From Rhizobiales bacterium IMCC20636 (GTDB lineage Bacteria > Pseudomonadota > Alphaproteobacteria > Rhizobiales > GCA-2746425), in NCBI GenBank assembly GCA_016865015.1, contig CP018226.1:2201001-2265000 (forward strand): a stretch of 64,000 nt of DNA. The letters run 5' to 3'. The position numbers and the translations under genes were made by a program. Below are positions 1 to 19,620 of this stretch, one piece after another (positions within the stretch are counted from its first letter, which is position 1; every line of letters begins with the position of its first letter). A model generated the notes under the pieces. It saw only the letters and a list, made by a program, of their open reading frames with translations, was not told the DNA's origin and searched no databases.

Positions 1-2
1 GT

Positions 3-755
3 GGCTATATTGGCTACTTTGTAGCCGATGTGACGGGTTATTGGCTACTGGCCTTTCCGGTGGCTTTTGTGGTCGTCGGACTGCTCGGAATTCTCATGCA
101 GGTGTTTGTTTTCCAGAAGATGGAAGGCGAGGATTTGCGCCAAACACTGGTGACGATTGGAATTTCCATTGTCATGGCGGATCTGATGTTGTGGGGGTTT
201 GGTGGAGACTTCTTCAACATTTCACCGCCGCAATGGCTCAGCGGGCCCTTGACCACATTCTTTGTCACAGGTGCCAAGAGCTCGGGCGAGCTGGTTTATC
301 TGAAATATCCGATCGTGCGGATCGTCATTTTCATCGCGTCTGTCATTATTGGGCTGGGGATGTGGATGCTGCTGAACCGTACGCGCATTGGCATGCTTAT
401 TCGCGCAGGTGTTGATGATCGCGACATGCTGTCTGCGACCGGTGCCCGAATTCAACTGGTGTTCATCGGCGTGTTCGCGTTTGGAGCCGGGCTGGCAGGT
501 GTTGCTGGGGTTGTGGGCGGCACCTTCCAGTCGGTCGCTCCTGGCGAAGACATCCGGTTTCTGCTGGCGTCACTGGTGGTGGTGATTGTGGGGGGCATGG
601 GCTCGATCCCCGGTGCTGCGATTGGCGCTCTGGTGATTGGTCTGGCAGAGCAACTTGGGTCTGTGTATTTTCCAACCTACGCAGTGGTACTGACCTTTCT
701 GATCATGGTTGTGGTTCTCGCATTCCGGCCTCAGGGCCTGTTGGGGAGAGCATAA
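3..755 (+). CDS. livH: LivH-type branched-chain amino-acid ABC transporter permease (5' end cut)
   Basis: This is an inner-membrane permease of the LivH family, one half of the channel of a HAAT-type importer. The reading frame is open from the first bases of the window, so the true start lies upstream and about 250 residues are visible. The visible part is almost wholly hydrophobic with about six membrane segments. It carries the family's glycine-rich loop near the C-terminus (GGMGSIPGAAIGALVIG) and ends in FRPQGLLGR, a typical LivH tail. A GTG at base 30 is in frame but falls inside the conserved region, so it is not the start. The LivM partner begins 3 bases after the stop. The periplasmic binding protein is not in the window and is presumably upstream. 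The substrate cannot be read from the permease; the downstream genes argue against simple leucine uptake. Confidence 0.9.
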   Translation, partial: GYIGYFVADVTGYWLLAFPVAFVVVGLLGILMQVFVFQKMEGEDLRQTLVTIGISIVMADLMLWGFGGDFFNISPPQWLSGPLTTFFVTGAKSSGELVYLKYPIVRIVIFIASVIIGLGMWMLLNRTRIGMLIRAGVDDRDMLSATGARIQLVFIGVFAFGAGLAGVAGVVGGTFQSVAPGEDIRFLLASLVVVIVGGMGSIPGAAIGALVIGLAEQLGSVYFPTYAVVLTFLIMVVVLAFRPQGLLGRA

Positions 756-758
756 AGC

Positions 759-1823
759 ATGGCTCTGATCGAGGAAACCGAAGCAGGCGAGGCGGACGAC
801 CGGAAGGTGGGCTGGGCCGAGCGCGTGCCGGTTCAATATTGGGTCGTCATCATCCTGCTGCTGATCATGCCCGCCTTTGCCAGTGACTTTACACTTTTTC
901 AGATTTTTGGATGGTCCTTCATTCTCGGAATGATTGCTCTCAGCCTCATGTTTCTGGCCGGTTATGGGGGCATGGTCAGTCTTGTCCAGATGACCATTGC
1001 CGGCTTGGCTGGCTACATGATTGCGATCTTTGGCGACAGTGCCATCACTGACATCAGTCAAGGTTGGCCGTGGTATGTATCGATCCCGATTGCCCTTATC
1101 ATAGCCATGCTGTTCGGCTCACTCGTGGGATGGCTCTCGGTGCGCACCGAAGGCATCTACACAATCATGATCACGCTAGCGATTGCATCGGCCTTCTTCT
1201 ACTTTGCACGGCAAAATTATGTGGTTTTCAACGGGTTTTCCGGGTTTAACGGGGTGCTGCCACCCATGCTGTTTGGGGTGGATTGGCGCGGCAGCCAAGC
1301 GTTTTACTATCTGACGCTTTTCTGGGCCTGTCTGTCCTATCTGGTGGTGTTGTATCTATCCCGTTCGCCATTCGGTCTGGCGCTTCAGGGCGTGCGTGAC
1401 AATCCGCGCCGCATGGCAGCTCTTGGGTTCAATGTGAATGCTCATCGGGTTGCAGCGTATGCCTTTGCAGCCTTGATTGCTGGCATTGGTGGCATTCTGC
1501 TGACCTGGCAATCAGCGCAGATTTCACCCGGAACCGCCGGTGTCGGGCCTGTTATCGATATTCTGATCATTGCTGTCATCGGTGGTCTTCGGCATCCGAT
1601 TGGCCCCTTCATAGGTGCGTTCATCTATGTGGTTCTGAAAACATTTTCTGTCGATTTTCTGACGGCGCTGGGTCTGGGCGGTGAACGCTTCCAATTGCTG
1701 ATAGGGATCAGTTTCCTTGTGATCGTGTTCTGGTCACCGGATGGCATTCTGGGCCTCTGGGAAAAATGGCGTCGCAGCCGCGGCAAAGACCCGTTGCGTG
1801 ATGCCGGGGAGAGCAAGCTATGA
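759..1823 (+). CDS. livM: LivM-type ABC transporter permease
   Basis: This is the second inner-membrane permease of the HAAT importer, 354 residues, the usual LivM length. A polar N-terminus of about 25 residues is followed by about nine hydrophobic segments. The LivM signature region is visible as a GVRDNPRRMAALGFNV stretch around residues 210-226, the cytoplasmic coupling loop that docks the ATPases. A GGLRHPIGPFIGA loop follows near residue 275. The ATG start is 3 bases after the livH stop, and the end overlaps the next gene by 4 bases (ATGA), which points to translational coupling. It must act with the LivH before it and the two ATPases after it. Substrate unknown. Confidence 0.92.
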   Translation: MALIEETEAGEADDRKVGWAERVPVQYWVVIILLLIMPAFASDFTLFQIFGWSFILGMIALSLMFLAGYGGMVSLVQMTIAGLAGYMIAIFGDSAITDISQGWPWYVSIPIALIIAMLFGSLVGWLSVRTEGIYTIMITLAIASAFFYFARQNYVVFNGFSGFNGVLPPMLFGVDWRGSQAFYYLTLFWACLSYLVVLYLSRSPFGLALQGVRDNPRRMAALGFNVNAHRVAAYAFAALIAGIGGILLTWQSAQISPGTAGVGPVIDILIIAVIGGLRHPIGPFIGAFIYVVLKTFSVDFLTALGLGGERFQLLIGISFLVIVFWSPDGILGLWEKWRRSRGKDPLRDAGESKL

Positions 1824-2611
1824 ATGCTCCCACAACAGTTTCAGAACGGTTGAATGCAACAGGAACGGCCAATGCGCTGGAGTTGCGTGGTGTTTCCAAG
1901 CTGTTTGGCGCTTTGGCGGCTCTGAGTGACATCAACATCACCGTGCGCCCCGGCGAGCGTCGCGCTGTGTTGGGGTCAAACGGTGCTGGCAAGACCACCT
2001 TGTTCAACTGCATTACCGGTGATTTCCTGCCAACAAGCGGTTCCATCCGGTTTTTTGGTGAAGACATCTCCGAGTTTCCGGCCCATGAGCGCATTCGGCG
2101 CGGATTGCGGCGGACCTATCAGATTTCATTGTTGTTCACCGGTCTGAGCGTTTTGGACAATGTCTATCTGGCTTGCTGCGGTGTCTCACGCGGCCGCTTT
2201 TCCCTCATTCGCCCGCGCCGTAATGATGCGCTGATGGCCAGTGCTGAGGATCTGGTGCGCGTTGTGCATATGGAAGATGCAAAGGACACGTTGGTTTCGG
2301 AATTGTCTTACGGACAACAACGGCAGCTTGAAATTGCCATGGCCTTGTCTGGCGCGCCTCGTTTCATCCTGTTTGATGAGCCCGCCGCAGGGCTGTCGCC
2401 AACAGAGCGCCGGGAACTGGTGGAGATTCTGACTGGCCTGCCATCCCATATGGGTTTCATCATCATTGAGCACGATATGGATGTGGCACTGCGGGTCGCT
2501 GAATCGGTGACCATGATGCACAATGGCCGTATCTTCAAGGAAGGCAAGCCCGCTGAAATTGAAGAAGATCCCGAAGTGCAGGCGCTTTATCTGGGGGGCG
2601 GTGATGGCTGA
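1820..2611 (+). CDS. livG: LivG-type ABC transporter ATP-binding protein
   Basis: This is a cytoplasmic ATPase of the HAAT importer, 263 residues. Walker A is GSNGAGKT at residues 52-59. The signature motif appears as [12 protein letters not shown], with Tyr in place of the usual Gly, as is common in LivG proteins, followed by Walker [11 protein letters not shown] and the H-loop region IIEHDMDV. It starts with an ATG overlapping the livM stop and ends 8 bases inside the next gene's start region, so all four transporter genes are coupled. The 20-residue N-terminal lead before the first conserved strand is slightly long, but no better start is evident. Confidence 0.93.
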
Positions 2612-4769
2612 ACGTTCAACCCCCGCTCTCGAGGTCCGGGATCTCAATGTCTATTATGGTCAATCCCATGCGTTGCAGGGCGTTGATTTGACATTGGACC
2701 ATGGCGTTCTGTCTGTGGTTGGACGCAATGGCATGGGCAAAACCACGCTTTGCAAGGCGATTATGGGTCTTGAGCCGATGGCTGCTGGCTCTATCAGTTT
2801 CTATGGGCAGTCGCTGGCCGGGTTGACTCCGGCTCAGATTGCCCGCCTTGGCATTGGCTATGTCCCACAAGGGCGGCGGTTGTGGCGCTCGTTGACTGTG
2901 GACGAGCATCTCAAGCTTGTCGCCCGCAAGGGCGGTGCCTGGACACCTGATCGCATCTATTCAACATTCCCCAGGCTTGCGGAGCGCAAGACCAATGGTG
3001 GCGCGCAATTGTCGGGCGGTGAACAGCAAATGCTGGCCATTGGCAGAGCCCTTTTGCTGAATCCCAAATTGCTGCTCATGGATGAGCCGACTGAAGGCCT
3101 GGCCCCGGTTATCGTCAATCAGGTTGCCGAAATGCTGAAACGGCTGGGCAGTGAAGGCGATGTCGATGTTTTGGTCATCGAGCAGAATATCGGCGTGGCG
3201 TGTTCGATTTCCGAGCAGGTTGCCATCATGGTCAATGGCACGATCAACCGTGTCATGGATGCTGGATTGCTGGCGGGTGACCGGGATTTGCAGCAAGCGC
3301 TCCTGGGTGTCGGCAGACATGCTCATGATGAAACACCCGATAGTGCTGAAGTCGACACGCCGGAGAGCAAGGACAAGGACCATGGTCCTGTCCGGATTTA
3401 TCTGTCCAATCCGAAAGTGCCGACCCGATGGTCTCAGCCGGTGCCGGTGCGGGTTATCGAAGGCAGTGCCAGAACGCAGACGCAGGAACATGCGAGCAGC
3501 GCAAATTCAAGTGAACCGATGCGCGCGCTTGCCAGAGGCACCGCGACGACGGTGCTGGTGGCAGGAACTCTGGACACCAAGGGTGATGAATTGCGCTTCA
3601 TGCGCGACTTGCTGAAGGCAAATGGTCTGCGGGTTCAATTGGTGGATCTGTCTACAAGCGGCAAACCGTCTGGCGCTGAAGTGCCACCTCATGTGGTTGC
3701 TGCGTTCCATCCCAGAGGCGTTTCTGGTGTCTTCACTGGTGACCGGGGCACCGCAGTTGCTGGCATGACGCTGGCTTTTGAGCGCTGGATTCGCCAACAG
3801 AACCATGTAGCAGGTGTTGTGTCTGCTGGCGGTTCCGGTGGTACGGCACTGGTCGCACCGGCGATGCGGGCTTTGCCGATTGGCGTGCCCAAACTCATCG
3901 TCTCCACGATCGCCAGCGGAAATGTCGGACAATATGTCGGCCCGGCGGATATCATGATGCTGCATTCGGTGGCCGATGTTCAGGGCCTGAACTCCATCAC
4001 GCGGGAAGTGCTGGCCAACGGGGCTCAGGCCATGGCTGGAATGGTCAAGAGCCGGGCGGGCGCGCAAGCTGTAACGAGCGAAAAACCGGCCATCGGTCTT
4101 ACCATGTTTGGTGTGACGACCCCTTGTATTCAGCAAGTTACCGCACAGCTTGAAGATGATTTTGACTGTTTGGTGTTCCACGCCACCGGTGTCGGTGGGC
4201 GGTCGATGGAGAAGCTTCTGGACAGTGGCATGCTATCGGCTGTGCTGGATCTGACAACAACCGAAATCTGCGACATGATCGCAGGCGGTGTCTTTCCTGC
4301 AACCGAGGACCGCTTTGGTGCCTCCATTCGTGCGGGGAAACCATATATCGGCGCATGCGGTGCACTGGACATGGTGAATTTTGCGGCACCGGAAACCGTG
4401 CCAGAGAAGTATCGTGGCCGAAACCTTTACGAGCATAATCCGCAGATTACGCTGATGCGCACGACGCCGGATGAAAATCGGACCATGGGCCAGTGGATCG
4501 GTGAAAAGCTGAACCTCATGACCGGACCTGTGCGGTTTTTCCTTCCGGAGGGTGGTGTCTCTCTGCTGGATGCGCCTGGCATGGCGTTTCATGATCCGGA
4601 AGCTGACGCGGCGCTGTTTAGTGCGCTGGAAGAAACCGTCCGCCAGACCACTAACCGTCAATTGATACGGGTTCCTCACAATATCAACGATCAGGCTTTT
4701 GCTGATCTGGTTGTTCAAACTTTCCGCAGCTTTCATTCGGTGCGGACCAAAAAAGCCTCAGGAGAATAA
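2604..4769 (+). CDS. LivF-type ABC ATPase fused to a Tm-1-like (UPF0261) domain
   Basis: This is a 721-residue two-domain protein. Residues 1-240 are a LivF ATPase with Walker A GRNGMGKT at 40-47, signature LSGGEQQ at 136-142 and Walker [13 protein letters not shown] polar linker of about 70 residues rich in Glu, Asp, Pro and Ser follows. From residue 315 to the end is a Tm-1-like ATP-binding domain, opening with the family's [16 protein letters not shown] motif. The start chosen is the ATG at 2604, which overlaps the livG end; the frame stays open upstream, but that stretch lies inside livG. Tm-1-like proteins are usually free-standing or joined to a PEP-hydrolase-like TIM barrel, and that partner is the very next gene, 3 bases on. 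The fusion ties the importer physically to the Tm-1/TIM-barrel pair. The biochemical role of the Tm-1 domain in bacteria is unknown to me. Confidence 0.9.
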
Positions 4770-4772
4770 TGC

Positions 4773-5600
4773 ATGTTTGATCGTAATCAGCTGATGAAAC
4801 GCTATCGTCAAATGATCGCCAAGGGTGAGCCGATCATTGGTGGCGGTGCCGGGACCGGACTGTCGGCCAAATGTGAAGAGGCAGGCGGAATTGATCTGAT
4901 TGTGATCTACAATTCAGGACGTTACCGCATGGCAGGGCGCGGCAGTCTGGCGGGTTTGATGCCCTATGGCGATGCCAATGCTGTTGTGATGGATATGGCT
5001 GGCGAAGTGCTGCCGGTGGTGAAACACACACCTGTGCTGGCTGGCGTGTGTGCCTCTGATCCGTTCCGGATGATGGATAAGTTTCTCGACGAAGTGAAGG
5101 CCGCCGGCTTTTCCGGCGTGCAGAACTTTCCCACTGTTGGCCTGATTGATGGAAACTTCCGGGCCAATTTGGAAGAGACCGGCATGTCCTATAGCCTCGA
5201 AGTCGACATGATTGCGCTGGCGCATGAAAAAGGGCTGCTGACCACGCCGTATGTGTTCTGCTCTGATGATGCGGCGGCTATGGCCGGGGCCGGGGCCGAT
5301 ATCATTGTCTGCCATCTTGGCCTGACAACCGGTGGTGCCATTGGTGCGGAAACATCGCTGACGCTGGAGCAGTGTCCTGCAATCGTCGATGAATGGGCTG
5401 CGGCGGCACTGGCGGTCAATCCTGATGTGATTGTGCTGGTCCATGGCGGGCCGGTCGCAATGCCGGAAGACGCCGCCTTTGTTCTGAAACATACCTCGAA
5501 TTGTCATGGCTTTTATGGCGCGTCCTCAATGGAACGGCTGCCGACTGAAATTGCACTGACGGAACAAACCAAAAAATTCAAACAAATCGGCCGCATGTAA
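4773..5600 (+). CDS. Phosphoenolpyruvate hydrolase-like TIM-barrel protein
   Basis: This 275-residue protein matches the PEP-hydrolase-like TIM-barrel family (PF09370 type), which is related to the PEP mutase/isocitrate lyase fold. Visible family features are [21 protein letters not shown] at the N-terminus, an [17 protein letters not shown] loop, the [11 protein letters not shown] strand and a C-terminal [12 protein letters not shown] segment. An SD-like GGAGAA lies 10-15 bases before the ATG. Members commonly neighbour, or are fused to, Tm-1-like domains, as here. The family name comes from distant similarity, and the actual reaction is unproven. The context suggests it acts on a product made in this island, but the substrate cannot be inferred. 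Confidence 0.85.
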
Positions 5601-5621
5601 GCGGCAACAAGGGAGCATGCC

Positions 5622-8600: not shown

Positions 8601-9119
8601 GAAAAACGCATTGGTGCGGAAGCTGAACGCATTCGTGCTGCCGTTGAAGCGGAAGCTCAAAAACTCATCAACGAAGCCGAGAACGTTCTTACCGATGAGG
8701 CGCGTCATTCGCTCTTCAAGCGGAAGATGCTGGAGCATGTCGAAGGCATTGTGGCTGCATCCGTCAAACCACTCGAGAAGATCAACGAAATCAAGATCAT
8801 GCAATTGGGTGGTTCCGGGACAAATGGTGTCGGCTGGGGCAATGGAAACGGTGGCTCGGATGGTGGATCGGGTGGCAACAGCGGCGGCAGCCCAACCGAC
8901 GAGGTCATCAATTCAGCTTTGCGCTACCGCGTCCAGGCACCGATGATCGACAGCTTGCTGTCGGATATCGGAATTGACGGAGCCAACATCGCGAAGCAGG
9001 GCGGCTTGATCCGGGAAGCCTCTGACATGACCCGCATGCAGGGCGAACTCAATCGCGCCCAGAAAGCCAAGGAAGATGGCAAGGACGGCAAAGATGCCAA
9101 ATCCGGAGACAAGAAATAA
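5622..9119 (+). CDS. Giant flotillin-family protein with a hendecad-repeat coiled coil
   Basis: This 1165-residue membrane-anchored SPFH protein is about twice the usual flotillin length. Residues 5-28 are one hydrophobic anchor. Residues 36-190 are the SPFH/band-7 domain (FVRTGFLGERVVIDGGAFV and onward). Residues 205-1000 are charged Ala/Glu/Arg/Ile coiled coil. Inside it, residues 290-883 divide exactly into 14 tandem units, twelve of 44 residues and two of 33, with Ile or Val recurring every 11 residues. A glycine-rich stretch (about 1063-1092) and a Lys/Asp tail follow. The stop overlaps the next ATG (TAATG). Flotillins assemble membrane platforms. By position it may scaffold the transporter or the molybdenum enzyme, but that is inference only. 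The large opposite-strand open frames here arise from the repeat codon bias. Confidence 0.93.
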   Translation: MTGQLIGQLILWLILAVIVIFILYWVMNWLYRRSTKEIAFVRTGFLGERVVIDGGAFVWPIVHDITPVNMNTLQLEVTRAREQALITKDRIRVDVEAEFYVRVRQDKKSVSVAAATLGRRTLEPERLHSLLAGKFVSALRTTAAEMTSEELLENRNTYVARVLEAAQAGLEKNGLELESLAITDIDQSDIEYFNPSNRFDAEGLTTVIKSIEERRKLRNDIEQDAMIKIRSRNLEAEKQALQIDKESEEARLDQEREVEFRRAQQRTDLVRERAEREKEAEQASLVSREAIETSRIQNEQQIAESRIASELTIRQKEISRQRTVDEAEIVSREAIEKARIGQERVLSEERIKNQQQTDSADIVAKEAIEKARISQERSVTEARIAKDKDTQSMEIERQRSVDEAEILAREMIEKARIAQERSITEARIALEQGTKEKEIARNLAVQEAEIAAREASEKLRIAQETTVNAERIKSDRATRELEIERQKVLEEAEIASQQATEAARIAREKTLSADRIASEQATRALDIERQRIIEEATIASRESTDTTRIAQEERIRALEIQRNRAVDEAEIAAREAVEKARISQEKQLSFDRIAAREETDEREVGRKEALEASEIAAKEATEARRIAQEKATAAERIAFEKATRELEIARNQALDEAEVASREAVEAARIAQEAKLSLQRIESDEKTKEREVARARALETAELAKAEALEAARIAKEKKVAAERIAYEQDLREREIARNRTVDAASIAAQQDINGRRISEEGKTRAAEIEKEAEIRSREIEKNEAIESAEISSRRLVDQLRIEKERETTSEKISRDESIRNLEIARNKALDAAQIAADEAIEAARVAKEKTVDAEKILAEQELDAKKLDRKKVLEQIEIARVQVLREAEIASQEEVERARIASERGLDEARIGHQTERRRLEIGREKAVEQALMDKAIELYKKSLDESAAAAEADVAKARATEAAEKVKTVKETEEASRRKTVDVVMAEKQAEEKRIGAEAERIRAAVEAEAQKLINEAENVLTDEARHSLFKRKMLEHVEGIVAASVKPLEKINEIKIMQLGGSGTNGVGWGNGNGGSDGGSGGNSGGSPTDEVINSALRYRVQAPMIDSLLSDIGIDGANIAKQGGLIREASDMTRMQGELNRAQKAKEDGKDGKDAKSGDKK
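6489..8270 (+). repeat. Tandem array of 132-bp (twelve) and 99-bp (two) coding repeats in the flotillin gene
   Basis: The translated region splits into 14 consecutive units whose lengths in order are 44, 33, 44, 44, 44, 44, 33, 44, 44, 44, 44, 44, 44 and 44 residues; these sum to exactly 594 residues. A consensus unit reads roughly AxEKARIAQE, then xxxxAERIAxE, then xATRELEIAR, then NxAxDEAEIAxRE. Isoleucines fall at unit positions 7, 18, 29 and 40, that is every 11 residues. The two short units are each missing exactly one 11-residue block. The DNA copies are diverged, so this is an old array and not a recent slippage product. Confidence 0.9.
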
Positions 9120-9556: not shown

Positions 9557-9638
9557 AAAGCTGATGAAACAGGCTGCTGATCACATGATGGGACAAAACA
9601 ATATGACGCTCAAAAACGGTTGGATGGATTAGACGCTC

Positions 9639-10082: not shown

Positions 10083-10084
10083 AT

Positions 10085-10885: not shown

Positions 10886-11367
10886 TGGTCAAAACTCCAA
10901 TACGCTTTACGCTCAACGGTTCTGAAACCGCCTTGTTTGTAGATGGTGGCGCGAACCTGCTCGACACCTTGCGGCGCGGTGTCGGCGATCTGTCACCCAA
11001 ATATGGCTGTGGCCAGGGCACATGTGGCACCTGCACCGTGTTGATTGATGGCGAACCACATCTCAGTTGCCTGACGCTGGCCGAAACGGCGGAAGGGCGC
11101 AGCATCGAGACGACAAATGGCCTGGCAAACGGTGCAGAATTGCATCCGTTGCAAAAGGCCTTCATGGAAAATTTCGGGGCGCAATGCGGGTATTGCACTC
11201 CTGGCATGCTGATGGCCGCCAAAGCATTGCTGAGCAAAAACCCAAATCCCAGCCGTGAAGAGATCGTTGAAGCAATTTCAGGGAATATCTGCCGCTGCAC
11301 CGGATATGAGCCGATTATCGATGCGATTATGATAGCCGCTGGCCAATTGCGTGGGAGGGTTGCCTGA
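10885..11367 (+). CDS. 2Fe-2S small subunit of a molybdenum hydroxylase
   Basis: This 160-residue electron-transfer subunit is of the CoxS/CutS family. It carries both expected iron-sulfur cluster motifs. The plant-ferredoxin type is CGQGTCGTC plus a fourth Cys in HLSCLT. The second, helical type is QCGYCTPG with CRCTGYEPI. All eight Cys are present, so both clusters should assemble. It overlaps its neighbours on both sides by single bases (TAATG and TGATG). The order medium, small, large is that of coxMSL in CO-dehydrogenase operons. Confidence 0.95.
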   Translation: MVKTPIRFTLNGSETALFVDGGANLLDTLRRGVGDLSPKYGCGQGTCGTCTVLIDGEPHLSCLTLAETAEGRSIETTNGLANGAELHPLQKAFMENFGAQCGYCTPGMLMAAKALLSKNPNPSREEIVEAISGNICRCTGYEPIIDAIMIAAGQLRGRVA

Positions 11368-13211
11368 TGTCCTCAATTGAATTCAGAAAAGATCTGTTTG
11401 CCGACGAGCGCGACGACACGCTGAAGGAGATCGGCAAGCCGACCATTCGCCAGGATATTCTGGGTCATGTGACGGGGCGGTCGCCTTATTTTGATGATCA
11501 TCTGTTCGACGGGTTGTTGCATATGCGTTGCGTGCGTTCTCCGCACCATCATGCACGCATTCGGTCGATCGATACGTCAGCGGCGGATCGTATGCCGGGG
11601 GTCCGGCGTGTGATCCGGCCGGAAGATGTGCCGAACAATCTCAACACGCTTCTGTCGCTGATCAATTTCGGCAAGGATGATGAGGCGTTGCTCCAGGGCA
11701 AGAAGGTTGCCTATGTTGGAGAGCCGGTGGTTGCGATCATCGCCGAGACAGAACGCCAGGCACGTGACGCGGTCGCGGTTGTGCGGGTTGACTATGAAGT
11801 GCTGCCACATGTGCTGGATGTGGAGGAGGCGCTTGAGCCGAATGCACCGGTGGTCAGTGAGACTTACCCCAACAATACGTTTGATTATCATGATCTCTAC
11901 GACCACCAGAAATTGCGGTTCGGGGATGTGGACAAAGGATTTGCAGAGGCCGACCATATTGTCGAAGGCCGCTATCAGATGTCGCCAATCGAGCAGGCAC
12001 CGACAGAGACCTGTGGAGCCATCGCAGCGCCGGAAACCAATAACCGGTTTGTCTGTTACACCTCGACACAGGCCTTGTTTTTCTCGCTGGGAACGACTGC
12101 CAAATTGCTGAATATGCCGTCGTCCCAGTTGCATTTCATCGGCGGTACTGTCGGCGGTGGTTTTGGCGGGAAGGTGGACAGTCTGCACGAACCGCTCGCC
12201 GTTCTGGGCTCAAAACTGACAGGTGCTCCCGTCAAATTCACTTTTGATAGGGCGGAAGAAATGCAGGTCGGTGCTCCGCGTGGTGCCGAGCGCTGGTTCA
12301 TCAAGGACGGGGTCATGAATGACGGGCGCATTGTGGCGCGTCAATTTACCGGATTCTTTGATTCCGGTGCTTACACCCGGCTCAGTTCCTACGCCATCAT
12401 CAAGGGAACAGGGCATCTGCCGGGGCCATATTCCATTCCCAATGTGGCTTCCAATGTCTATTGCGTTTACACCAACCGAACCCCGGCCACTGCCATGCGT
12501 GGCTTCGGCATTACCGGTGTCGATTTCTCCATTGAATGTCATATGGACAAGGTGGCTGAAACCGTCAGGATGAACCCGATCGAGCTGCGCATCCTCAATT
12601 CCTACCGAGACGGGGATATGAAGGCGCATCGTCGCCTCGCCAAGAACACGGCGCTGATCGAATGTTGTCAGGTGGCTGCCGGCAAGGCCAAATGGCCTAT
12701 CAGCGCGGACGCTGCTGCACAGTCCAGCCTGCAGGGCGGTGGTGGTGATCGAGCCATCATTCCGGAAACTGTCACCGATCAGGCTGGCCGGATTGGCGAA
12801 CGGCGCCGCAGCAAAATTCCGACGGCTCCGGGAGAAGGCGCAACGTCCAAAGGTCGTGTCGCAGCGGGATCTTCGGTGGCACCGATTGTTGCCGTGCCGC
12901 CGCAACGCGATGACATGGTCATTGATCCGTCGAGAACCGGTCACCGAAAAGCTGGCGCTGGTCCTGCTGTTCCACCTGTGCAGGCCACGCCTCAGGCTCC
13001 GCCGCGTTACACACCGCCGACGCCTGCGGCACCTGTTCAGACAATTCCGAGCTATACACCACCACCGGCAGCGCCTGTTGTTCAGCCATCACAGCCAGCA
13101 CCTGCGGTGCAACCACCTGCGCCTGAGCCATATCAGCCAAGTGAGCCGTTTCAAAAGGGCATCAAACGGCCCGGCGTATCTCGTTTCATTTCCGGCACAA
13201 GGAGGCGTTGA
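11367..13211 (+). CDS. Molybdenum hydroxylase large subunit, N-terminal half, with proline-rich tail
   Basis: This is a 614-residue protein. Residues 1-440 match the first half of the xanthine-oxidase-family large subunit: GHVTGRSPYFDD near the start, the cofactor-binding loop GGTVGGGFGGK ending near 269 and AMRGFG at 376-381. Homology then stops. Residues 440-614 are low complexity, with a Pro/Ala/Gln/Val-rich run from about 529 to 590 and a basic end (GTRRR). The rest of the enzyme is encoded by the next gene, which starts after a single base. AMRGFG lacks the Cys found at this loop in copper-containing form I CO dehydrogenase, so this is not a form I enzyme. No frameshift is needed: both halves have their own start, and there is a GGAGG site before the second. 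Split large subunits are known in nicotinate dehydrogenase (NdhL/NdhM). Confidence 0.88.
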   Translation: MSSIEFRKDLFADERDDTLKEIGKPTIRQDILGHVTGRSPYFDDHLFDGLLHMRCVRSPHHHARIRSIDTSAADRMPGVRRVIRPEDVPNNLNTLLSLINFGKDDEALLQGKKVAYVGEPVVAIIAETERQARDAVAVVRVDYEVLPHVLDVEEALEPNAPVVSETYPNNTFDYHDLYDHQKLRFGDVDKGFAEADHIVEGRYQMSPIEQAPTETCGAIAAPETNNRFVCYTSTQALFFSLGTTAKLLNMPSSQLHFIGGTVGGGFGGKVDSLHEPLAVLGSKLTGAPVKFTFDRAEEMQVGAPRGAERWFIKDGVMNDGRIVARQFTGFFDSGAYTRLSSYAIIKGTGHLPGPYSIPNVASNVYCVYTNRTPATAMRGFGITGVDFSIECHMDKVAETVRMNPIELRILNSYRDGDMKAHRRLAKNTALIECCQVAAGKAKWPISADAAAQSSLQGGGGDRAIIPETVTDQAGRIGERRRSKIPTAPGEGATSKGRVAAGSSVAPIVAVPPQRDDMVIDPSRTGHRKAGAGPAVPPVQATPQAPPRYTPPTPAAPVQTIPSYTPPPAAPVVQPSQPAPAVQPPAPEPYQPSEPFQKGIKRPGVSRFISGTRRR

Positions 13212-13212
13212 G

Positions 13213-14235
13213 ATGACTGTTCACAAAGGCCGTGGTTTTGCCTGCATCAACTATCCTATCGGCATGAATCTGGGCGGCGATCCCAGCCAGGCACTGGTTC
13301 ATTCCACACCTGATGGCAAATTCATGGTGTCGCTGAGTGCCATTGATCTGGGGCAAGGGATGAAATCGGTTACCCGCCAGATTGCAGCAGAAACGCTGGG
13401 TGTCCCGGTGGCAGATGTTTATGTGGACACCGCCGACAGTGACACGGGACCACATGATATGGGGTCTTTTGCCTCTCGCGGCACCCACCGTGTTGGCAAT
13501 GCGGTCATTCGCGCTGCTGCTGAAGCACGCGCCGCCATGATGGAAGCCGCTGCAGAAGAGCTGGAGGTCAACCCGGCCGATCTGGATACAGATGGCGAAG
13601 GCAACATTCATGTCAAAGGGGCGCCGGGTCGTTCGATTACTGTGGCGGACACAGCTATTGCAGCGCAGTTCAAACAGGGAAAGACGCTCTCCGGACGCGG
13701 TATTTTTCTCATCCCGACGTCCGAGGTGGATGCTGACACCGGGGAAATGACGCCGGTCTCATGCTTTGCCCATGCCGCAGTTGTTGTTGATCTGGAAGTT
13801 GATGATGAAACCGGTGAAGTGACTGTCAGCGAGGTGAATTCCGCCTATGAGGTTGGACGTGCGCTCAATCCGAAAATGGTTGAACAGCAACTGATCGGTG
13901 GTGCGTGGATGGGGATATCGCACGCACTTTATGAAACCACCGAGCCGTATTATCCAAACCGGTCTCATGGCCCGCAAGACTACAACACCTATCTGATGCC
14001 GGGTCCGGGTGATGTGGTGCCACACCACATTGCAGTTCTGGAACGGCCTGCCGAGGATGCCCCTTTTGGCGGCAAAGGGCCGGGCGAGATGTGCGCCAAT
14101 CCTTTGCTCCCCGCTGTTGCAAACGCAATTTACAATGCGGTGGGCGTGCGCTGCGATACGCTGCCGATCACTCCGGAAAAGGTTCTGCGCGGCATTCAGG
14201 CGAATGGTGGCGCGCAACCCAGGGAGATGTTCTAG
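13213..14235 (+). CDS. Molybdenum hydroxylase large subunit, C-terminal half
   Basis: This 340-residue protein holds the second half of the molybdopterin subunit. It has the IDLGQG cofactor loop at about residues 43-48, the GSFASRGTHRVGNAV loop and the active-site glutamate in GGKGPGE (Glu292). The start chosen is ATG 13213, 6 bases after an AGGAGG (spanning 13199-13204). The frame is open further upstream, but those bases encode the previous protein's proline-rich tail in another frame. With the preceding protein it should reconstitute one catalytic subunit, because every cofactor-binding loop is present once across the pair. The substrate is not evident; N-heterocycle hydroxylation is the commonest reaction for split forms. 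Confidence 0.9.
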   Translation: MTVHKGRGFACINYPIGMNLGGDPSQALVHSTPDGKFMVSLSAIDLGQGMKSVTRQIAAETLGVPVADVYVDTADSDTGPHDMGSFASRGTHRVGNAVIRAAAEARAAMMEAAAEELEVNPADLDTDGEGNIHVKGAPGRSITVADTAIAAQFKQGKTLSGRGIFLIPTSEVDADTGEMTPVSCFAHAAVVVDLEVDDETGEVTVSEVNSAYEVGRALNPKMVEQQLIGGAWMGISHALYETTEPYYPNRSHGPQDYNTYLMPGPGDVVPHHIAVLERPAEDAPFGGKGPGEMCANPLLPAVANAIYNAVGVRCDTLPITPEKVLRGIQANGGAQPREMF

Positions 14236-14238
14236 TCC

Positions 14239-15120
14239 GTGGCAGTTCGTCCTTCCATTGCTGGTATCAACTCGCCCGACAGCCTTCGGGCTGCGCTGAT
14301 TGGTGCGCAATATCTGGCGGATGACGGGCTTTCGACATCAGCCTATCTGGCGCTGGCGCTGGGAAAGCCGCTCTTGCTGGAAGGCGCGCCCGGTGTGGGT
14401 AAAACCGAAGCTGCCAAGGCCATTGGTGCGGTGTTGGGACGCAATGTCATTCGCCTGCAATGTTTTGAGGGGATCGACGCGGCAGCCGCCTTGTATGAAT
14501 GGAACTATACACGGCAGATGCTGGCCATTCGTCAGGCTGGCGATGAGTATGTGAATATTTATGGTGATGAGTTCCTGCTGGCGCGTCCCATGCTGGAAGC
14601 GCTGCGATCACCTGAAAACACGGTCTTGCTGATTGATGAAATCGACCGGTCGGATCATGAATTTGAGGCGTTCTTGCTGGAGTTTCTGTCTGACTTCCAG
14701 ATTTCAATTCCGGAAACCGGTACAATCCGCGCAACTCAGGCTCCGGTGGTGGTGCTGACATCAAACCGAACGCGTGATCTGCATGAGGCTTTACGCAGGC
14801 GGTGCGTCTATCACTGGATTGATTATCCCGATGCCGCGCTGGAAGCGGAAATCGTGATGACACGGGCCAGCAGCGTGGCACGGGCGACGGCTGATGCTGT
14901 TGTCGCGGCTGTCACGCAATTGCGGGCTGAACCGCTGGCGAAACCGCCGGGCGTGGCGGAAACCGTTGAATGGGCAGAAGCTGCAACATTGTTGCATTCG
15001 CAAGGCAATCCCTGGCCGCAGGCGTTTCGCAAGGCGATTGGTGTGGCCCTGAAGGATCATGATGATCTGACCTATATGCAGCCGCGACTTGATGGTGTTC
15101 TGCCGTCGGAGGCCGCCTGA
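14239..15120 (+). CDS. MoxR-family AAA+ ATPase (CoxD-like)
   Basis: This 293-residue AAA+ ATPase has Walker A GAPGVGKT at residues 49-56, Walker B VLLIDEIDRSD and a sensor-1 VLTSNRTRDL. The start is a GTG 3 bases after the previous stop; no ATG fits the conserved N-terminus. CoxD of CO-dehydrogenase operons is the closest functional model. There it works with the VWA protein CoxE to finish the active site of the molybdenum enzyme. Here the VWA partner follows with a TGATG overlap. A matching role in maturing the split molybdenum hydroxylase is likely but inferred. Confidence 0.92.
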   Translation: MAVRPSIAGINSPDSLRAALIGAQYLADDGLSTSAYLALALGKPLLLEGAPGVGKTEAAKAIGAVLGRNVIRLQCFEGIDAAAALYEWNYTRQMLAIRQAGDEYVNIYGDEFLLARPMLEALRSPENTVLLIDEIDRSDHEFEAFLLEFLSDFQISIPETGTIRATQAPVVVLTSNRTRDLHEALRRRCVYHWIDYPDAALEAEIVMTRASSVARATADAVVAAVTQLRAEPLAKPPGVAETVEWAEAATLLHSQGNPWPQAFRKAIGVALKDHDDLTYMQPRLDGVLPSEAA

Positions 15121-16220
15121 TGTTGCCACGTGCCATAGAACCCTTCGTCGATTTTGCTGGCGTGTTGCGGGCGCATCGTTTTGCAGTCGCACCGGACCAG
15201 ACCAGCGGATTCATCGAAGCGATCGGGCTGCTGGGCCCACGACATATGGATGATATCCACCGGGCTGCGTTATCGATGCTGGCCATCCCCCACGAGCGGG
15301 AACCGGAATTCGATGCGCTGTTCCGGGCCTTTTTCATGGGACAGACGGTTTCTGCACCCGCCAGCGCTGGTGATGACGAGGAAGAGGTTGAGGCCTTTGA
15401 AGCCAGTGATGGCGAATCCGAGGTGCCGGAAGGCGAAGAAATCGAAGATTCCGGCGCTGAAGCGACCATTGCCGAAAGTCTCAGTCAGCGCAGTTTCGGG
15501 GCGCGGGACAATGCATCTGTTTTACGGGATTTTGCGCGACGCGCGCCCGCCCGCCTGCCGCGGCGTTTGTCTTACAGGCGTTCTGCAGCGCGTCATGGGG
15601 ACAGGCTGAACATGCGCAAGGCACTGCGTGAAGCTGTGCAGCGCGACGGTGAAGTGTTTACGCTGCCGCAATTGCGGCGGAAAACCCGGCAGCGTCGGCT
15701 GTTGCTGCTGATTGATGTTTCCGGCTCGATGAAAGAGCAGACAGATGAAACCCTGCGCTTTGCGCACACGCTGGCGCAAGTGGCGGACCGGTTTGAGGCC
15801 TTTACGCTGGGCACGCGCCTTACCCGCATCACACCAGCGCTCGCGCCGAAAAACAGTCAGGAAGCTTTGGACAAAACCAGCCAATTGGTCGCGGATTTCG
15901 ATGGTGGGACCCGGATTGGTGATGCGCTTCAGGCCTTTCTGGCCGTGCCGCGCTTTTCTGGGTTTGCCCGTGGATCAGCTGTGATCGTGTTGTCTGATGG
16001 GTTGGAGCGCGGTGCGCCGAACGCTTTGATTGATGCGGTTTGGCGCTTGTCCCGCATGGCTTGGCGCGTGGACTGGCTGTCGCCGCTTGCCGGGGATGCT
16101 GACTACGTACCTCAAACCGAAGCTTTGTCCGCAATTCGCCCATATCTCGACAGTTTGTCAGATGGCAGCGATACGCGCGCTATTTGTAATCACATTTTGA
16201 ACCTTGCGAGGGCTGCATGA
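15120..16220 (+). CDS. VWA-domain protein, CoxE family
   Basis: This 366-residue cytosolic protein of the CoxE type has a helical N-terminal domain, a strongly acidic segment (about residues 84-118, Asp/Glu-rich) and a basic arginine-rich stretch. A C-terminal von Willebrand A domain begins near 190, with the MIDAS metal site DVSGSM at 199-204. MoxR ATPases and VWA proteins of this kind act as pairs that remodel or insert metal into client enzymes. It overlaps the MoxR gene by one base and the following amidohydrolase gene by 4 bases. No signal peptide or membrane segment is visible. Confidence 0.9.
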   Translation: MLPRAIEPFVDFAGVLRAHRFAVAPDQTSGFIEAIGLLGPRHMDDIHRAALSMLAIPHEREPEFDALFRAFFMGQTVSAPASAGDDEEEVEAFEASDGESEVPEGEEIEDSGAEATIAESLSQRSFGARDNASVLRDFARRAPARLPRRLSYRRSAARHGDRLNMRKALREAVQRDGEVFTLPQLRRKTRQRRLLLLIDVSGSMKEQTDETLRFAHTLAQVADRFEAFTLGTRLTRITPALAPKNSQEALDKTSQLVADFDGGTRIGDALQAFLAVPRFSGFARGSAVIVLSDGLERGAPNALIDAVWRLSRMAWRVDWLSPLAGDADYVPQTEALSAIRPYLDSLSDGSDTRAICNHILNLARAA

Positions 16221-17092
16221 TCGACGCACATCACCATATTTGGCAACAGAAGGATCTGCCCTGGTTGCTGGGACCAGAGCAACCGCGGATTTTTGGGCCA
16301 TATTCTGCCATCAAACGCGATTATCTGATTGACGAATATCTGAATGATCTCAAAGGGCTGGGTATCACGAAGTCGGTCTATGTTCAGGCAAACTGGGCGC
16401 CCAACTGGTTTGAAGATGAGGTTGCGTGGGTGCAATCTGTGGCGGACGCCAGTGGTTGGCCGCATGGCATTGTTGGTTACGCCGATTTCACGGTGGATGA
16501 TGTGCGTCCACAGCTGGATCGTCTGAAGAAGTATCCTTTGATGCGCGGTTTGCGCCAGCAATTGCACTGGCATGAAAACCCGCTCTACCGCTTTGCGGCA
16601 ACGCCAGATTTGCCGTCAAATGCTGTGTTGCAACGTAATGTGGCACATCTTGGTGATTATGGCTGGACGTTTGATTTGCAGGTTTTCTCCGGCCAGATGG
16701 ATGCTGCCGTGGAACTGGCGCATGCCTGTCCGGATGTGACCTTTATCTTGCAGCACGCAGGAATGCTTGAAGACAGCAGTGAAGAGGGTTGGGCCGCCTG
16801 GCGCAAGGGCATGAAACGATTGTCCAAATGCAAGAATGTGGTCACCAAACTTTCCGCATTCGGAACCTTTATCCAGCGCAATGATCCCGAGTTTATCGCC
16901 GAAATGGTTGCGGAGACTGTGGCGATCTTTGGAGCCAAGCGCTGCATGTTCGGGTCCAATTTTCCAATCGAGAAATTGTGGACGTCCTATGGGGAACTTT
17001 TCGCAGCGTTTCAGAAAGCCACCGCAAATCTGCCGAAAACCCAGCAGAAGGCGATTTTTCACGACACCGCAGCGCGGGTCTACCAACTCTGA
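16217..17092 (+). CDS. Amidohydrolase-family TIM-barrel hydrolase (lactonase-like)
   Basis: This 291-residue metal-dependent hydrolase is of the amidohydrolase-2 group, which includes L-fuconolactonase and 2-pyrone-4,6-dicarboxylate lactonase. The N-terminal metal motif is MIDAHHHIW. The strand QVFSGQMDAAVELAHACPDVTFILQHAG supplies the later His, and the C-terminal MFGSNFPIEKLW is the family's GSNFP motif, where Asp is often Asn. The start overlaps the VWA stop. In a catabolic island with a ring-hydroxylating enzyme, a lactone- or lactam-opening role is reasonable. The substrate is not identified. Confidence 0.85.
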   Translation: MIDAHHHIWQQKDLPWLLGPEQPRIFGPYSAIKRDYLIDEYLNDLKGLGITKSVYVQANWAPNWFEDEVAWVQSVADASGWPHGIVGYADFTVDDVRPQLDRLKKYPLMRGLRQQLHWHENPLYRFAATPDLPSNAVLQRNVAHLGDYGWTFDLQVFSGQMDAAVELAHACPDVTFILQHAGMLEDSSEEGWAAWRKGMKRLSKCKNVVTKLSAFGTFIQRNDPEFIAEMVAETVAIFGAKRCMFGSNFPIEKLWTSYGELFAAFQKATANLPKTQQKAIFHDTAARVYQL

Positions 17093-17149
17093 CGCACAAA
17101 TTTGCAATCACGGGCCGCTGGCCCAACGGACTTAAAGGGAGAAACACTT

Positions 17150-17998
17150 ATGGCGCTGACAATTCATATTCTCGATTATGGAGACATTGAACTGGAGACT
17201 TCATTTCTGGTGCTTGGTCATGAATGTGGCCGGGTGCGCAGGGTGCCGGTCTATGGCTTTCTGATCCTTGGCGGCGAATATCCGATTGTTGTGGATACTG
17301 GTTACCGGGATAACGCGATCATGGAATCGCTGGGCATGCGCGGGCTGCAGTTTCATGACAATATGATCGAAAACCAGTTGGCCAAGCATGGTGTGAAAAT
17401 GGGAGACGTGCGCTATGTGCTGCATACCCATCTGCACATTGATCATGCTGGCAAGGATGATCTGTTTCCGATGAACACCACTGTGGTGATGAACCGCAAG
17501 GAGATGGAGTTCTCCGTGTCGGGCATCATGTATCCGCAATATCCAAAACCGGACATTTTGCATCTGGTGGAGCGGATTTATGAGCCGGAAGCCATGCGCT
17601 TCCTTGATCTTGAAATCACTCAGGCTGAAGAAATCATCCCTGGCGTGTGGTGCGAGGCCGCTGGTGCCCACACCGAAGGTTCGATGAATGTGATCGTAGA
17701 AACCGCTGAAGGGCTGGCCTGTATCTGCGGTGATGTGATTTATGATTTCAACGACCAGATCGTCAATCATGTTCACACCAATATGGATATGGAGCCCCGG
17801 GTAACGGGCAATCATTCCGGGTCCAAGCGGGAAGAAAAGGGTGCGATCAAACGCCTGCTGAACAATTATAAATTCCTGCTGCCTGTGCATGATCGACCAG
17901 CGAAGATCGAGCGTCAGAAAGTGGTCGGCCGTTTGGGCATGACGGTTCCAGGGCCTTTGGTGGAAACCGTTCCCAACAGGGACTGGTTCCCCGCATAA
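17150..17998 (+). CDS. Metallo-beta-lactamase-fold hydrolase (N-acyl-homoserine-lactonase-like)
   Basis: This 282-residue MBL-fold protein has the zinc motif H94-x-H96-x-D98-H99 within HTHLHIDHAGKD, later ligands in GAHTEGSMN and CGDVIYDFND, and an end similar to the AttM/AhlD lactonase group. The start chosen is ATG 17150, with AAAGGGAG about 9 bases before it. A start 48 bases upstream is in frame but adds a poor N-terminus. It sits between two other predicted lactone or amide hydrolases, so a pathway role on the island's own substrate is more likely than quorum quenching. That is inference. Confidence 0.85.
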   Translation: MALTIHILDYGDIELETSFLVLGHECGRVRRVPVYGFLILGGEYPIVVDTGYRDNAIMESLGMRGLQFHDNMIENQLAKHGVKMGDVRYVLHTHLHIDHAGKDDLFPMNTTVVMNRKEMEFSVSGIMYPQYPKPDILHLVERIYEPEAMRFLDLEITQAEEIIPGVWCEAAGAHTEGSMNVIVETAEGLACICGDVIYDFNDQIVNHVHTNMDMEPRVTGNHSGSKREEKGAIKRLLNNYKFLLPVHDRPAKIERQKVVGRLGMTVPGPLVETVPNRDWFPA

Positions 17999-18018
17999 GG
18001 GGTTTGGAGGACAGTATC

Positions 18019-19620
18019 ATGAGCCATACCGCGATAGACCGGGAATTTCACAAGCTGATTGATGAATACGCGCCTCTTGCCCAGCTTGGCAGCGGTTTTG
18101 TGTTCACCGAAGGGCCGATCTGGCATCCGGTCAAGAAACATCTGCTGTTCTCGGATATGCCCGGCGACGTTCGCCGCAAATGGACCCCGGATGGGCGTGT
18201 TGAAGAGGTGATGCGCCCGTCCAACAAGGCCAACGGCATGACTTATGATGCCGATTTGAATCTGCTGGCCTGCGAGCATGCCACCAGTTCCGTGGCGCGT
18301 TTCCGACCGGATGGAACGCGGGAAGTGCTGTGTTCCCATTTTGAGGGCAGGGAGCTGAATTCTCCCAATGATATTTGCGTGCGTTCGGATGGCCGTATCT
18401 ACTTCACCGACCCGACTTACGGACGCATGGAGCATTTTGGCGTGCCGCGACCAACGCAACAGGGGTTTCAGGGCGTCTATATGCTTGAGGCGGGGCATAG
18501 GCCGGGCGACGAGCCTGTGCTGGTGTCTGACCGCTATATGTTCAACCAGCCAAATGGGTTGTGTTTTTCACCCTGTGAACGCTGGATGTGGGTGAATGAT
18601 ACGGATCAGGCCAACATTCGCATGTTTGATGTTGCTGATGACGGACGATTGACCAATGGGCGCATCTTTGCCTCTGGTATTGAAGACCGCCTCAAGCCCG
18701 GTCGGCCGGATGGCATGAAAGCTGATATTGATGGCAATGTCTGGGTTACGGCCCCCGGTGGTGTCTGGGTCTATTCATTCCATGGCATGCTGCTGGGAAA
18801 AGTGTCTGTTCCGGAAATGGTCGCCAATTTTCATTGGGGCGGTGACAATTGGGACACGCTGTTCATGACGTCCAGCACCTCGCTTTATTCCGTAAAAACA
18901 AAAATTCGCTCGCGCAATGAGCCCTTCATGAGTCCGAGAAACCAGGCCAGCGCAACGACAAATGTTCCTTCAGTACAATCAACGTCTCAAGCGCAACCAC
19001 AGTCTGGTGGAAGTGCCCTGAAAATCGACCCAGGCAAAGCGGTGTTGCTGATCCAGGACATGCAGAATGATGTCATCATGGATGGCGGTGCCTTTGCCGG
19101 CTCGGGCTCTCCCGAGCATGCAAAACAACAAAATGTGCTGGCCAATTCAGCGCGCCTTGCAGATGCCTGCCGCGCTGCTGGCGTGTTGGTTATTCATGTA
19201 TGGCTTGTCTGTGAACCAGGCCATCCGGCAATGGCACGCAACTCGCCTTTGATGGAGGGATTGATCGATGCGAACGCGCTGGTTCGCGGCACCTGGGGCG
19301 TTCAGCCTGCACCTGGCCTGGAGCCTAAAGCGGGTGATCTGGTGGTGGAAAAAATGACCATGAGTGCCTGGGAAAGCGGACGTCTGGAAAATTACATCAA
19401 GGGTGCTGGCCGCAACATCATCATCAATTCCGGTGCCTGGACCAATATGAGCATCGAGCACACCGCCAGAACGGGTGCTGACAAGGGCTATCAGATCATT
19501 CTTCCCGAAGATGCCTGTTCAACGATGAATGCTGACTGGCACCGCGCCTCCATCGAATATGCCATGACAAATGTGGCAACCGTCACCAATGTTGATGCGG
19601 TGATTGCAGCGCTGAGGTAG
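18019..19620 (+). CDS. SMP-30/gluconolactonase fused to an isochorismatase-like hydrolase domain
   Basis: This is a 533-residue two-domain protein. Residues 1-295 are an SMP-30/gluconolactonase/LRE beta-propeller: FVFTEGPIWHP near 34, the NSPNDICVRSDGRIYFTDPTYG metal-binding blade, and NGLCFSPCERWMWVNDT. A Ser/Gln-rich linker (about 300-335) follows. Residues 340-533 are isochorismatase-like with the expected Asp347 (QDMQND) and Lys445 (VEKMTMSAW). The catalytic Cys of the TNxC motif is Ser478 (TNMSIEHTAR). The ATG at 18019 has GGAGG 8 bases before it, which decides it over an upstream TTG. This is the last gene of the train. The fusion implies two successive hydrolytic steps, or one active and one structural domain. 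Confidence 0.87.
   Translation: MSHTAIDREFHKLIDEYAPLAQLGSGFVFTEGPIWHPVKKHLLFSDMPGDVRRKWTPDGRVEEVMRPSNKANGMTYDADLNLLACEHATSSVARFRPDGTREVLCSHFEGRELNSPNDICVRSDGRIYFTDPTYGRMEHFGVPRPTQQGFQGVYMLEAGHRPGDEPVLVSDRYMFNQPNGLCFSPCERWMWVNDTDQANIRMFDVADDGRLTNGRIFASGIEDRLKPGRPDGMKADIDGNVWVTAPGGVWVYSFHGMLLGKVSVPEMVANFHWGGDNWDTLFMTSSTSLYSVKTKIRSRNEPFMSPRNQASATTNVPSVQSTSQAQPQSGGSALKIDPGKAVLLIQDMQNDVIMDGGAFAGSGSPEHAKQQNVLANSARLADACRAAGVLVIHVWLVCEPGHPAMARNSPLMEGLIDANALVRGTWGVQPAPGLEPKAGDLVVEKMTMSAWESGRLENYIKGAGRNIIINSGAWTNMSIEHTARTGADKGYQIILPEDACSTMNADWHRASIEYAMTNVATVTNVDAVIAALR

Follow-up and report, generated by a model that had tools for sequence, protein, structure and literature searches.

Several described systems share parts with the locus reported here. 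Nicotinate dehydrogenase has a four-gene make-up with two molybdenum (Mo) subunits, according to the part of PMC10331938 drawn on here. For CO dehydrogenase, it has been proposed that CoxG recruits the enzyme to the membrane, and an AAA protein has a role in sulfuration (excerpts of PMC4240915). Human flotillin has a helical core of 186 residues and forms a cage wall without holes (sections of PMC11260169). Tm-1/UPF0261 proteins are found from bacteria to land plants; the tomato protein blocks tobamovirus, co-evolution of Tm-1 with a TIM-barrel partner has been described, and the available passages state no native function (PMC5028733). We analysed a window, the whole 64,000-nucleotide stretch at bases 2201001-2265000 of the 4.79 Mb single-contig genome of Rhizobiales bacterium IMCC20636, which begins within an island that joins an ATP-binding cassette (ABC) importer of the Liv type, with its LivF ATPase fused to a Tm-1 domain (LivF::Tm-1), to a giant flotillin, a Mo hydroxylase and lactonase-like hydrolases. 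Literature searches aimed at the island or its parts, which covered few subscription papers and no preprints, found neither a description nor a name for it. Its make-up suggests an undescribed pathway that degrades a compound at a specialised membrane patch.

The island is a real conserved unit. The initial annotation had described a single, nearly gapless unit on the plus strand, and this was borne out: every gene that it named was recovered as a Pfam match, all genes from LivH to the last lie on the plus strand with gaps of -8 to +82 bp (taking 2604 as the start of LivF), and the order recurs in other alphaproteobacterial families. A lack of synteny in any other genome, which the annotation had raised as the case against a unit, is excluded because the same order was found elsewhere, and chance neighbours are ruled out by its conservation across families. 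In the form that we call type I, the order begins with a binding protein, an iron-type alcohol dehydrogenase (Fe-ADH), at some loci an aldehyde dehydrogenase (ALDH), AraC, LivH, LivM, LivG, LivF::Tm-1, the PEP_hydrolase-like protein and flotillin; it continues with two SRPBCC proteins, the flavin adenine dinucleotide (FAD) and 2Fe-2S subunits, the N- and C-terminal halves of the Mo-binding subunit (MoN and MoC), MoxR, CoxE, Amidohydro_2, a metallo-beta-lactamase-fold (MBL) protein and an SMP-30::isochorismatase fusion. This order is kept in several families, with protein identity mostly 50-85% outside the genus. Thirteen loci were covered through the last gene (G000, G001, G002, G017, G023, G025, G039, G040, G041, G190, G218, G375 and the Yoonia plasmid L107), and in the named loci of Roseibium, Silicimonas and Boseongicola the order can be followed up to MoxR or CoxE, where their 20-kb stretches end. 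A Shinella plasmid gave close matches to Tm-1 and MoC.

The LivF::Tm-1 fusion was found, by query coverage, in 12 of 61 genomes of the order, one of which (G028) has an incomplete copy on a 5.9-kb contig. Among 385 sampled genomes of the class, 34 contained a Tm-1 relative (E <= 1e-70), fused in 19 when an open frame of > 700 residues was taken as a fusion. A MoC relative (E <= 1e-60) occurred in 8 of the 385, and in 6 of these 8 it was located 7.6-8.4 kb downstream of a fused Tm-1. The 19 fused loci comprise 6 of type I, 11 of a sister form without the Mo enzyme (type II) and 2 that are unassignable owing to contig ends.

The fusion is closely linked to flotillin. Flotillin is encoded at 48 of 51 loci with a fused Tm-1, and the other three (G398, L081 and L097) are fragments ending at that place, two of which (L081 and L097) show the flotillin start; at loci with an unfused Tm-1, a few of them on short contigs (e.g. 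G348 and L090), it was found in 0 of 26. Some of the 51 are near copies of one another, L074 being the same contig as G001. In a Tm-1 tree, built without L079, whose sequence is too short, type I forms one clade with support of 100/99, and the fused loci form nearly one clade, interrupted by G046, an unfused row within it. The linkage may therefore have a single origin and is not to be counted as many independent events. In the whole genome there is one UPF0261 match and one Flot (PF15975) match, both in the island. Across 21 aligned fused proteins, the linker between LivF and Tm-1 contains a conserved short segment with an invariant Arg-Trp near 3426-3431. A further Tm-1, in two pieces (72-80% identity), lies with a PEP_hydrolase (84%) on an uncultured Pseudomonadales contig (L079:8790-10822); the pair is close to type I, and no island surrounds it on that contig.

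The flotillin consists of an N-terminal hydrophobic segment (read by eye), an SPFH domain, a rod at about 6213-8768 and a Flot domain. The rod repeats every 11 residues, with a super-repeat of 44 residues. Its length, measurable in 44 of 49 rows, takes 13 distinct values, every one of which equals 5 or 8 modulo 11. A script test on the largest single class (7 of the 13 lengths) gave p of about 6e-4, and by our own arithmetic the chance of two of the eleven classes holding 13 independent lengths is near 1e-8, a figure to be read knowing that these lengths share ancestry. A second landmark in the rod was readable in 21 of the 49 rows, 17 of which again fell into two classes modulo 11; the others (G190, G375, L091 and L101) are outside these classes, the landmark pattern having fallen elsewhere in the rod. 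In the same 44 rows, rods of type I (580-852 residues) and type II (280-437 residues) do not overlap in length. These sequence regularities suggest that the rods may pack in register, as a cage wall would need.

The second distinctive component is the Mo hydroxylase. Its Mo-binding subunit is split at one common site in all 34 relatives, the second half starting at 13213, and a GTG start at 12739 for the MoCoBD_2 frame is thus unsupported. For both halves the best match in the PDB is 3hrd, a nicotinate dehydrogenase. All 34 relatives have GGGFGGKVD. At a site that is Arg in 3hrd, Ala in two CoxL rows and Glu in the quinoline enzyme, all 33 readable relatives have Lys. The catalytic Glu motif could be made out in 27 of 34 rows, the pattern falling on another place in the remaining 7. 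Purine hydroxylases such as xanthine dehydrogenase are marked by the residues Glu802 and Arg880 of xanthine oxidase; at what we take to be these sites we read Val and Lys by eye.

In the island, MoN has 530-641 residues and closes in a Pro-rich tail with a C-terminal tag. In all 28 island loci, which form 16 clusters at 90% MoC identity, MoN ends with three Arg; a longer motif is shared by 27 of them, L103 being a variant. The tag was found in none of six relatives outside the island; five of these proteins have 446-460 residues and no tail, and the sixth, L109, is in two frames and also has no tail. No other protein carries it among 1381 gene models of 79 loci, and among the loci compared it occurs only where flotillin is encoded alongside. 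Searches of the genome with the encapsulin family PF04454 and the microcompartment shell family PF00936 gave 0 matches, with control matches in 3 and 2 of 14 genomes, respectively; a search for the SrpI-like PF19307 was uninformative as no control matched. The usual receptors for such tags were therefore not found, and encapsulin or microcompartment targeting was rejected. Within the island, flotillin would be the best candidate for a tag receptor.

Type II clusters retain LivH, LivM, the binding protein, LivG, LivF::Tm-1, PEP_hydrolase, flotillin and SRPBCC, and have a second SRPBCC fused to a quinone-reductase-like dehydrogenase. The class sample has 11 type II loci, and in 9 of them three further genes adjoin: an FAA hydrolase, a PcaD-like alpha/beta hydrolase and an amidohydrolase that is close to dipeptidases and carboxypeptidases. 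Of these three, G138 has the amidohydrolase alone and G181, at a contig end, the PcaD-like hydrolase and the amidohydrolase. In a third form (type III: G048, L092 and L093), Tm-1 is unfused and there is no flotillin. Conversely, the Mo module occurs without this importer and flotillin on a Sinorhizobium plasmid, in Nonomuraea, on a haloarchaeal plasmid and on three contigs of two sampled genomes. Since each occurs without the other, the core (importer, Tm-1 pair, flotillin and SRPBCC) and the Mo module are separable parts that were joined. Relative to the initial annotation, three findings are new here: sister clusters that lack a Mo enzyme, the tail and tag of MoN, and the linkage of fusion and flotillin. 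PEP_hydrolase-like domains are also present in proteins of 577-596 residues upstream of type II clusters (G394, G138, G164 and G401); near the Tm-1 pair, Azospirillum has a protein of similar size and Mesorhizobium a sigma-54 regulator. The PEP_hydrolase TIM barrel may be a ligand sensor.

By their PDB matches, the Amidohydro_2, MBL and SMP-30 proteins resemble lactonases. In NCBIfam, the first reached 105.7 of 400 bits against L-fucono-1,5-lactonase; the MBL protein, which has the HxHxDH metal motif, is nearest the acyl-homoserine lactone lactonase AiiA and 4-pyridoxolactonase (62.7 of 375 and 60.7 of 325 bits); Fe-ADH is nearest 4-hydroxybutyrate dehydrogenase (298.8 of 500 bits), and ALDH 2,5-dioxovalerate dehydrogenase (515.3 of 750 bits), all below the cut-offs. 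The LivK-type binding protein is nearest PDB entries 4zpj and 4ey3, the latter of which we take to be an aromatic-acid binder. Cysteine amidases of the isochorismatase type use an Asp-Lys-Cys triad. In the isochorismatase-fold domain of the island, Ser takes the place of the catalytic Cys in 13 of 13 loci (the Lys motif was read in 13, the Asp motif in 12), so this domain is not a standard cysteine amidase and the opening of an amide ring is not assured. The chemistry outlined in the initial annotation thus stands in part: the genes fit import, Mo-dependent oxidation and lactone-type hydrolysis, and amide ring opening is weakened. The substrate may be an N-heteroaromatic acid, a lactone or a sugar acid.

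Our best explanation as a whole, to which we give a probability of about 45%, is that the importer supplies a Mo hydroxylase that is tethered at a microdomain formed by flotillin, after which the lactonase-fold hydrolases act. The island would be one catabolic unit of ~21 genes that has spread among families, and the Liv-type importer would take up a small carboxylated, probably cyclic compound. On the cytoplasmic side, flotillin rods with their 11-residue repeat would build a microdomain or cage attached to the membrane, at which the Pro-rich tail and tag would hold the Mo hydroxylase. If the roles of CoxG and of the AAA protein can be carried over by analogy, the MoxR/CoxD-like ATPase would act with CoxE in maturation of the Mo hydroxylase, and the two SRPBCC proteins would help its electrons to reach the membrane quinone. 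The Tm-1 domain sits on the transporter ATPase; guessing by this position, it and its TIM-barrel partner might work on the substrate or an early intermediate at entry. The lactonase-fold hydrolases would open the oxidised ring, and Fe-ADH and ALDH, where present, would oxidise the hydroxy acid to a dicarboxylate. Sister clusters would reuse the importer/Tm-1/flotillin/SRPBCC core, with the quinone-reductase-type enzyme replacing the Mo hydroxylase.

Several observations weigh against this explanation. The PDB margins are narrow, 3hrd_A scoring 183 bits versus 167 for a CoxL (MoN) and 3hrd_B 155 versus 149 for 4-hydroxybenzoyl-CoA reductase (MoC), so that the resemblance to nicotinate dehydrogenase rests mainly on the subunit split; in NCBIfam, MoN comes nearest to XdhA (267 of 780 bits) and MoC to 4-hydroxybenzoyl-CoA reductase, each falling far short of the cut-off. 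The accessory enzymes vary: the MBL gene is missing in G218 and present in 12 of the 13 loci with both neighbours, Fe-ADH and ALDH occur in 24 and 10, respectively, of the 27 type I loci with the upstream side covered, and Fe-ADH is only 30-44% identical outside Roseibium and the genus itself. L078 has a rod of 852 residues yet no Mo enzyme in the stretch covered, and a straight rod of that length would measure ~128 nm, very tall for a cage. A single origin of the type I clade may be the sole reason why tag and flotillin go together, and type II clusters carry flotillin but no tagged enzyme.

This last point bears on the idea that the same catabolic unit works with ordinary soluble enzymes, flotillin supporting the importer or membrane fluidity and the tag aiding assembly, for instance by binding the MoxR/CoxE chaperone. 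The co-occurrence of flotillin and fused ATPase in type II indicates that their link is to the importer, and MoxR and CoxE adjoin the tagged subunit; however, L109 and L110 have MoxR and CoxE but no tail (the L109 MoN frame is in two pieces), and among the loci compared the tag follows flotillin and not the chaperones. We consider this account possible, if somewhat unlikely. A second alternative is a lactone pathway. In Agrobacterium, the Blc/AttKLM genes open and oxidise a gamma-lactone, and the MBL lactonase, Fe-ADH and ALDH of the island could likewise open and oxidise butyrolactone or an acyl-homoserine lactone, with the Mo enzyme making the lactone or oxidising a side chain. The nearest relatives of these three proteins point that way, as do the PcaD-like enol-lactonase of type II and its amidohydrolase, whose nearest entries are for Xaa-Pro dipeptidase and carboxypeptidase, ochratoxinase ranking lower; but the NCBIfam matches all lie below curated cut-offs and ALDH is absent from 17 of the 27 covered loci, and a pathway of this kind appears improbable. 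Least probable is an oxidative sugar-acid pathway, in which the Mo enzyme would turn an aldose into a lactone for the fuconolactonase-like and SMP-30-like enzymes to open, as in the deoxyribose catabolism of Pseudomonas simiae with its Mo-dependent dehydrogenase and lactonase (part of PMC6365646): the genes beyond the Yoonia island, among them a 2,4-didehydro-3-deoxy-L-rhamnonate hydrolase relative (412 of 500 bits, below cut-off) between two short-chain dehydrogenases/reductases (SDR), would fit but were seen in one locus, the P. simiae enzyme is of the iorAB type whereas that of the island has a separate FAD subunit and split Mo subunits, and the binding protein resembles 4zpj and the presumed aromatic-acid binder 4ey3. 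Three other candidates were rejected: riboflavin/lumichrome breakdown uses different genes (in the portion of PMC12746152 drawn on), no matching cluster for homarine catabolism appeared among the papers listed by a literature search, and CO oxidation disagrees with the split subunit and with an active-site loop other than that of CoxL.

A bolder form of the tethered-hydroxylase explanation is that the giant flotillin builds a tall membrane-attached chamber around the importer, with the Mo hydroxylase as cargo brought in by its C-terminal targeting peptide. If true, bacteria would have a third kind of metabolic compartment in addition to microcompartments and encapsulins, and chamber height would be set in 11-residue steps and be larger in clusters that evolved with the bulky Mo enzyme. 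We regard such a chamber as doubtful at best.

The coordinates of the island genes are listed below. The unit begins outside the window, ~5.5 kb upstream of its first base, with the genes for the LivK-type binding protein, Fe-ADH, ALDH and AraC. LivH is truncated by the window start (full gene at L002 17745-18755), and the 280-bp gap 5' of it could hold a promoter; no convincing terminator was detected after 19620 (1 found versus 1.0 expected by shuffling).

Features of the island in window coordinates
Feature	Position	Strand	Basis
LivH-type permease	1..755, 5' end 255 bp upstream of window	+	Pfam BPD_transp_2
LivM-type permease	759..1823	+	Pfam BPD_transp_2
LivG-type ATPase	1820..2611	+	Pfam ABC_tran; nearest NCBIfam UrtD/LivG, below cut-off
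LivF ATPase fused to UPF0261 (Tm-1)	2604..4769	+	Pfam; alignment of 21 fused proteins
UPF0261/Tm-1 domain of the LivF fusion	about 3549-4766	+	UPF0261 N and C domains, 199 and 302 bits, cut-off 27 each
PEP_hydrolase-like TIM-barrel protein, Tm-1 partner	4773..5600	+	Pfam PF09370; PDB 2p10
Giant flotillin, 1165 residues	5622..9119	+	Pfam Band_7 and Flot, both above cut-off
SRPBCC protein 1 (CoxG-like)	9119..9556	+	Pfam PF10604
SRPBCC protein 2 (CoxG-like)	9639..10082	+	Pfam PF10604
FAD subunit of Mo hydroxylase	10085..10885	+	Pfam FAD_binding_5 and CO_deh_flav_C
2Fe-2S subunit of Mo hydroxylase	10885..11367	+	Pfam Fer2/Fer2_2
MoN, N-terminal half of Mo-binding subunit (MoCoBD_1)	11367..13211	+	Pfam; best PDB match 3hrd_A
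MoN Pro-rich tail	about 12705-13208	+	Comparison of relatives
MoN conserved C-terminal tag, three Arg at end	13179..13208	+	Island loci compared
MoC, C-terminal half of Mo-binding subunit	13213..14235	+	Pfam MoCoBD_2; best PDB match 3hrd_B
MoxR/CoxD-like AAA ATPase	14239..15120	+	Pfam AAA; NCBIfam MadB below cut-off
CoxE-like VWA protein	15120..16220	+	Pfam VWA_CoxE
Amidohydrolase_2 protein, fuconolactonase-like	16217..17092	+	Pfam Amidohydro_2; PDB 4dlf; NCBIfam below cut-off
MBL-fold hydrolase, lactonase-like	17150..17998	+	Pfam; start picked from relatives' lengths
SMP-30/gluconolactonase-like domain fused to isochorismatase-fold domain	18019..19620	+	Pfam; start site uncertain

Further observations concern individual loci and the flanks. 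On the plasmid from Yoonia, the frames for LivG, PEP_hydrolase and the 2Fe-2S subunit are each in two pieces (L107:5602-15148), and this copy of the island may be damaged or misread; the SDR, hydrolase and SDR genes beyond it lie at L107:23418-25752. In Labrenzia sp. DG1229 the island ends after the first SRPBCC gene and unrelated genes come next (L078:14333-20815). G001 has a SnoaL-like gene (L038:4984-5493) between its two SRPBCC genes that the genome of the window lacks. Upstream of the window, L002:4792-12250 encodes a ProX/V/W-like betaine-type ABC transporter and dimethylglycine-dehydrogenase/GcvT-like and choline-kinase-like proteins (named by eye); a dimethylglycine-dehydrogenase-like gene adjoins the island in G001 and G002 as well.

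The island ties Tm-1/UPF0261 to a defined importer, an enzyme set and a scaffold, which makes the function of Tm-1 testable. Likewise, the sole flotillin detected in the genome is genetically bound to one pathway and to a candidate client enzyme whose tag can be removed, so that the role of bacterial flotillins could be asked directly. Compared with the known systems, the Mo hydroxylase is like nicotinate dehydrogenase NdhFSLM of Eubacterium barkeri (3hrd) in having FAD and 2Fe-2S subunits and a Mo-binding subunit split at the corresponding place, but differs in the Pro-rich tagged tail of MoN and in the MoxR/CoxE and SRPBCC genes that go with it. With the aerobic CO dehydrogenase cluster coxMSLDEFG it shares FAD, Fe-S and Mo subunits together with CoxD-, CoxE- and CoxG-like genes, and no island gene was identified as CoxF. 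A Cys-containing active-site loop defines CoxL; unlike in that enzyme, the large subunit of the island is split and its loop reads RGFG versus CSFR in two CoxL rows. Cargo proteins of encapsulins and microcompartments have a flexible linker and a conserved C-terminal targeting peptide. The MoN tail is alike, but unlike those systems, the genome of the window has no PF04454 or PF00936 match. As in the bacterial Tm-1/UPF0261 and TIM-barrel pairs and in plant Tm-1L, the two domains stand side by side (PDB 3wry and 2p10); the island differs in the fusion of Tm-1 to an ABC ATPase and in its link to flotillin, which the part of PMC5028733 drawn on does not mention. Finally, the island flotillin resembles the flotillin cage and HflKC in its SPFH and Flot domains, those being membrane-attached cages (in the sections of PMC11260169 drawn on); unlike human flotillin, with its 186-residue helical core, it has a rod of up to 852 residues and stands in a catabolic operon.

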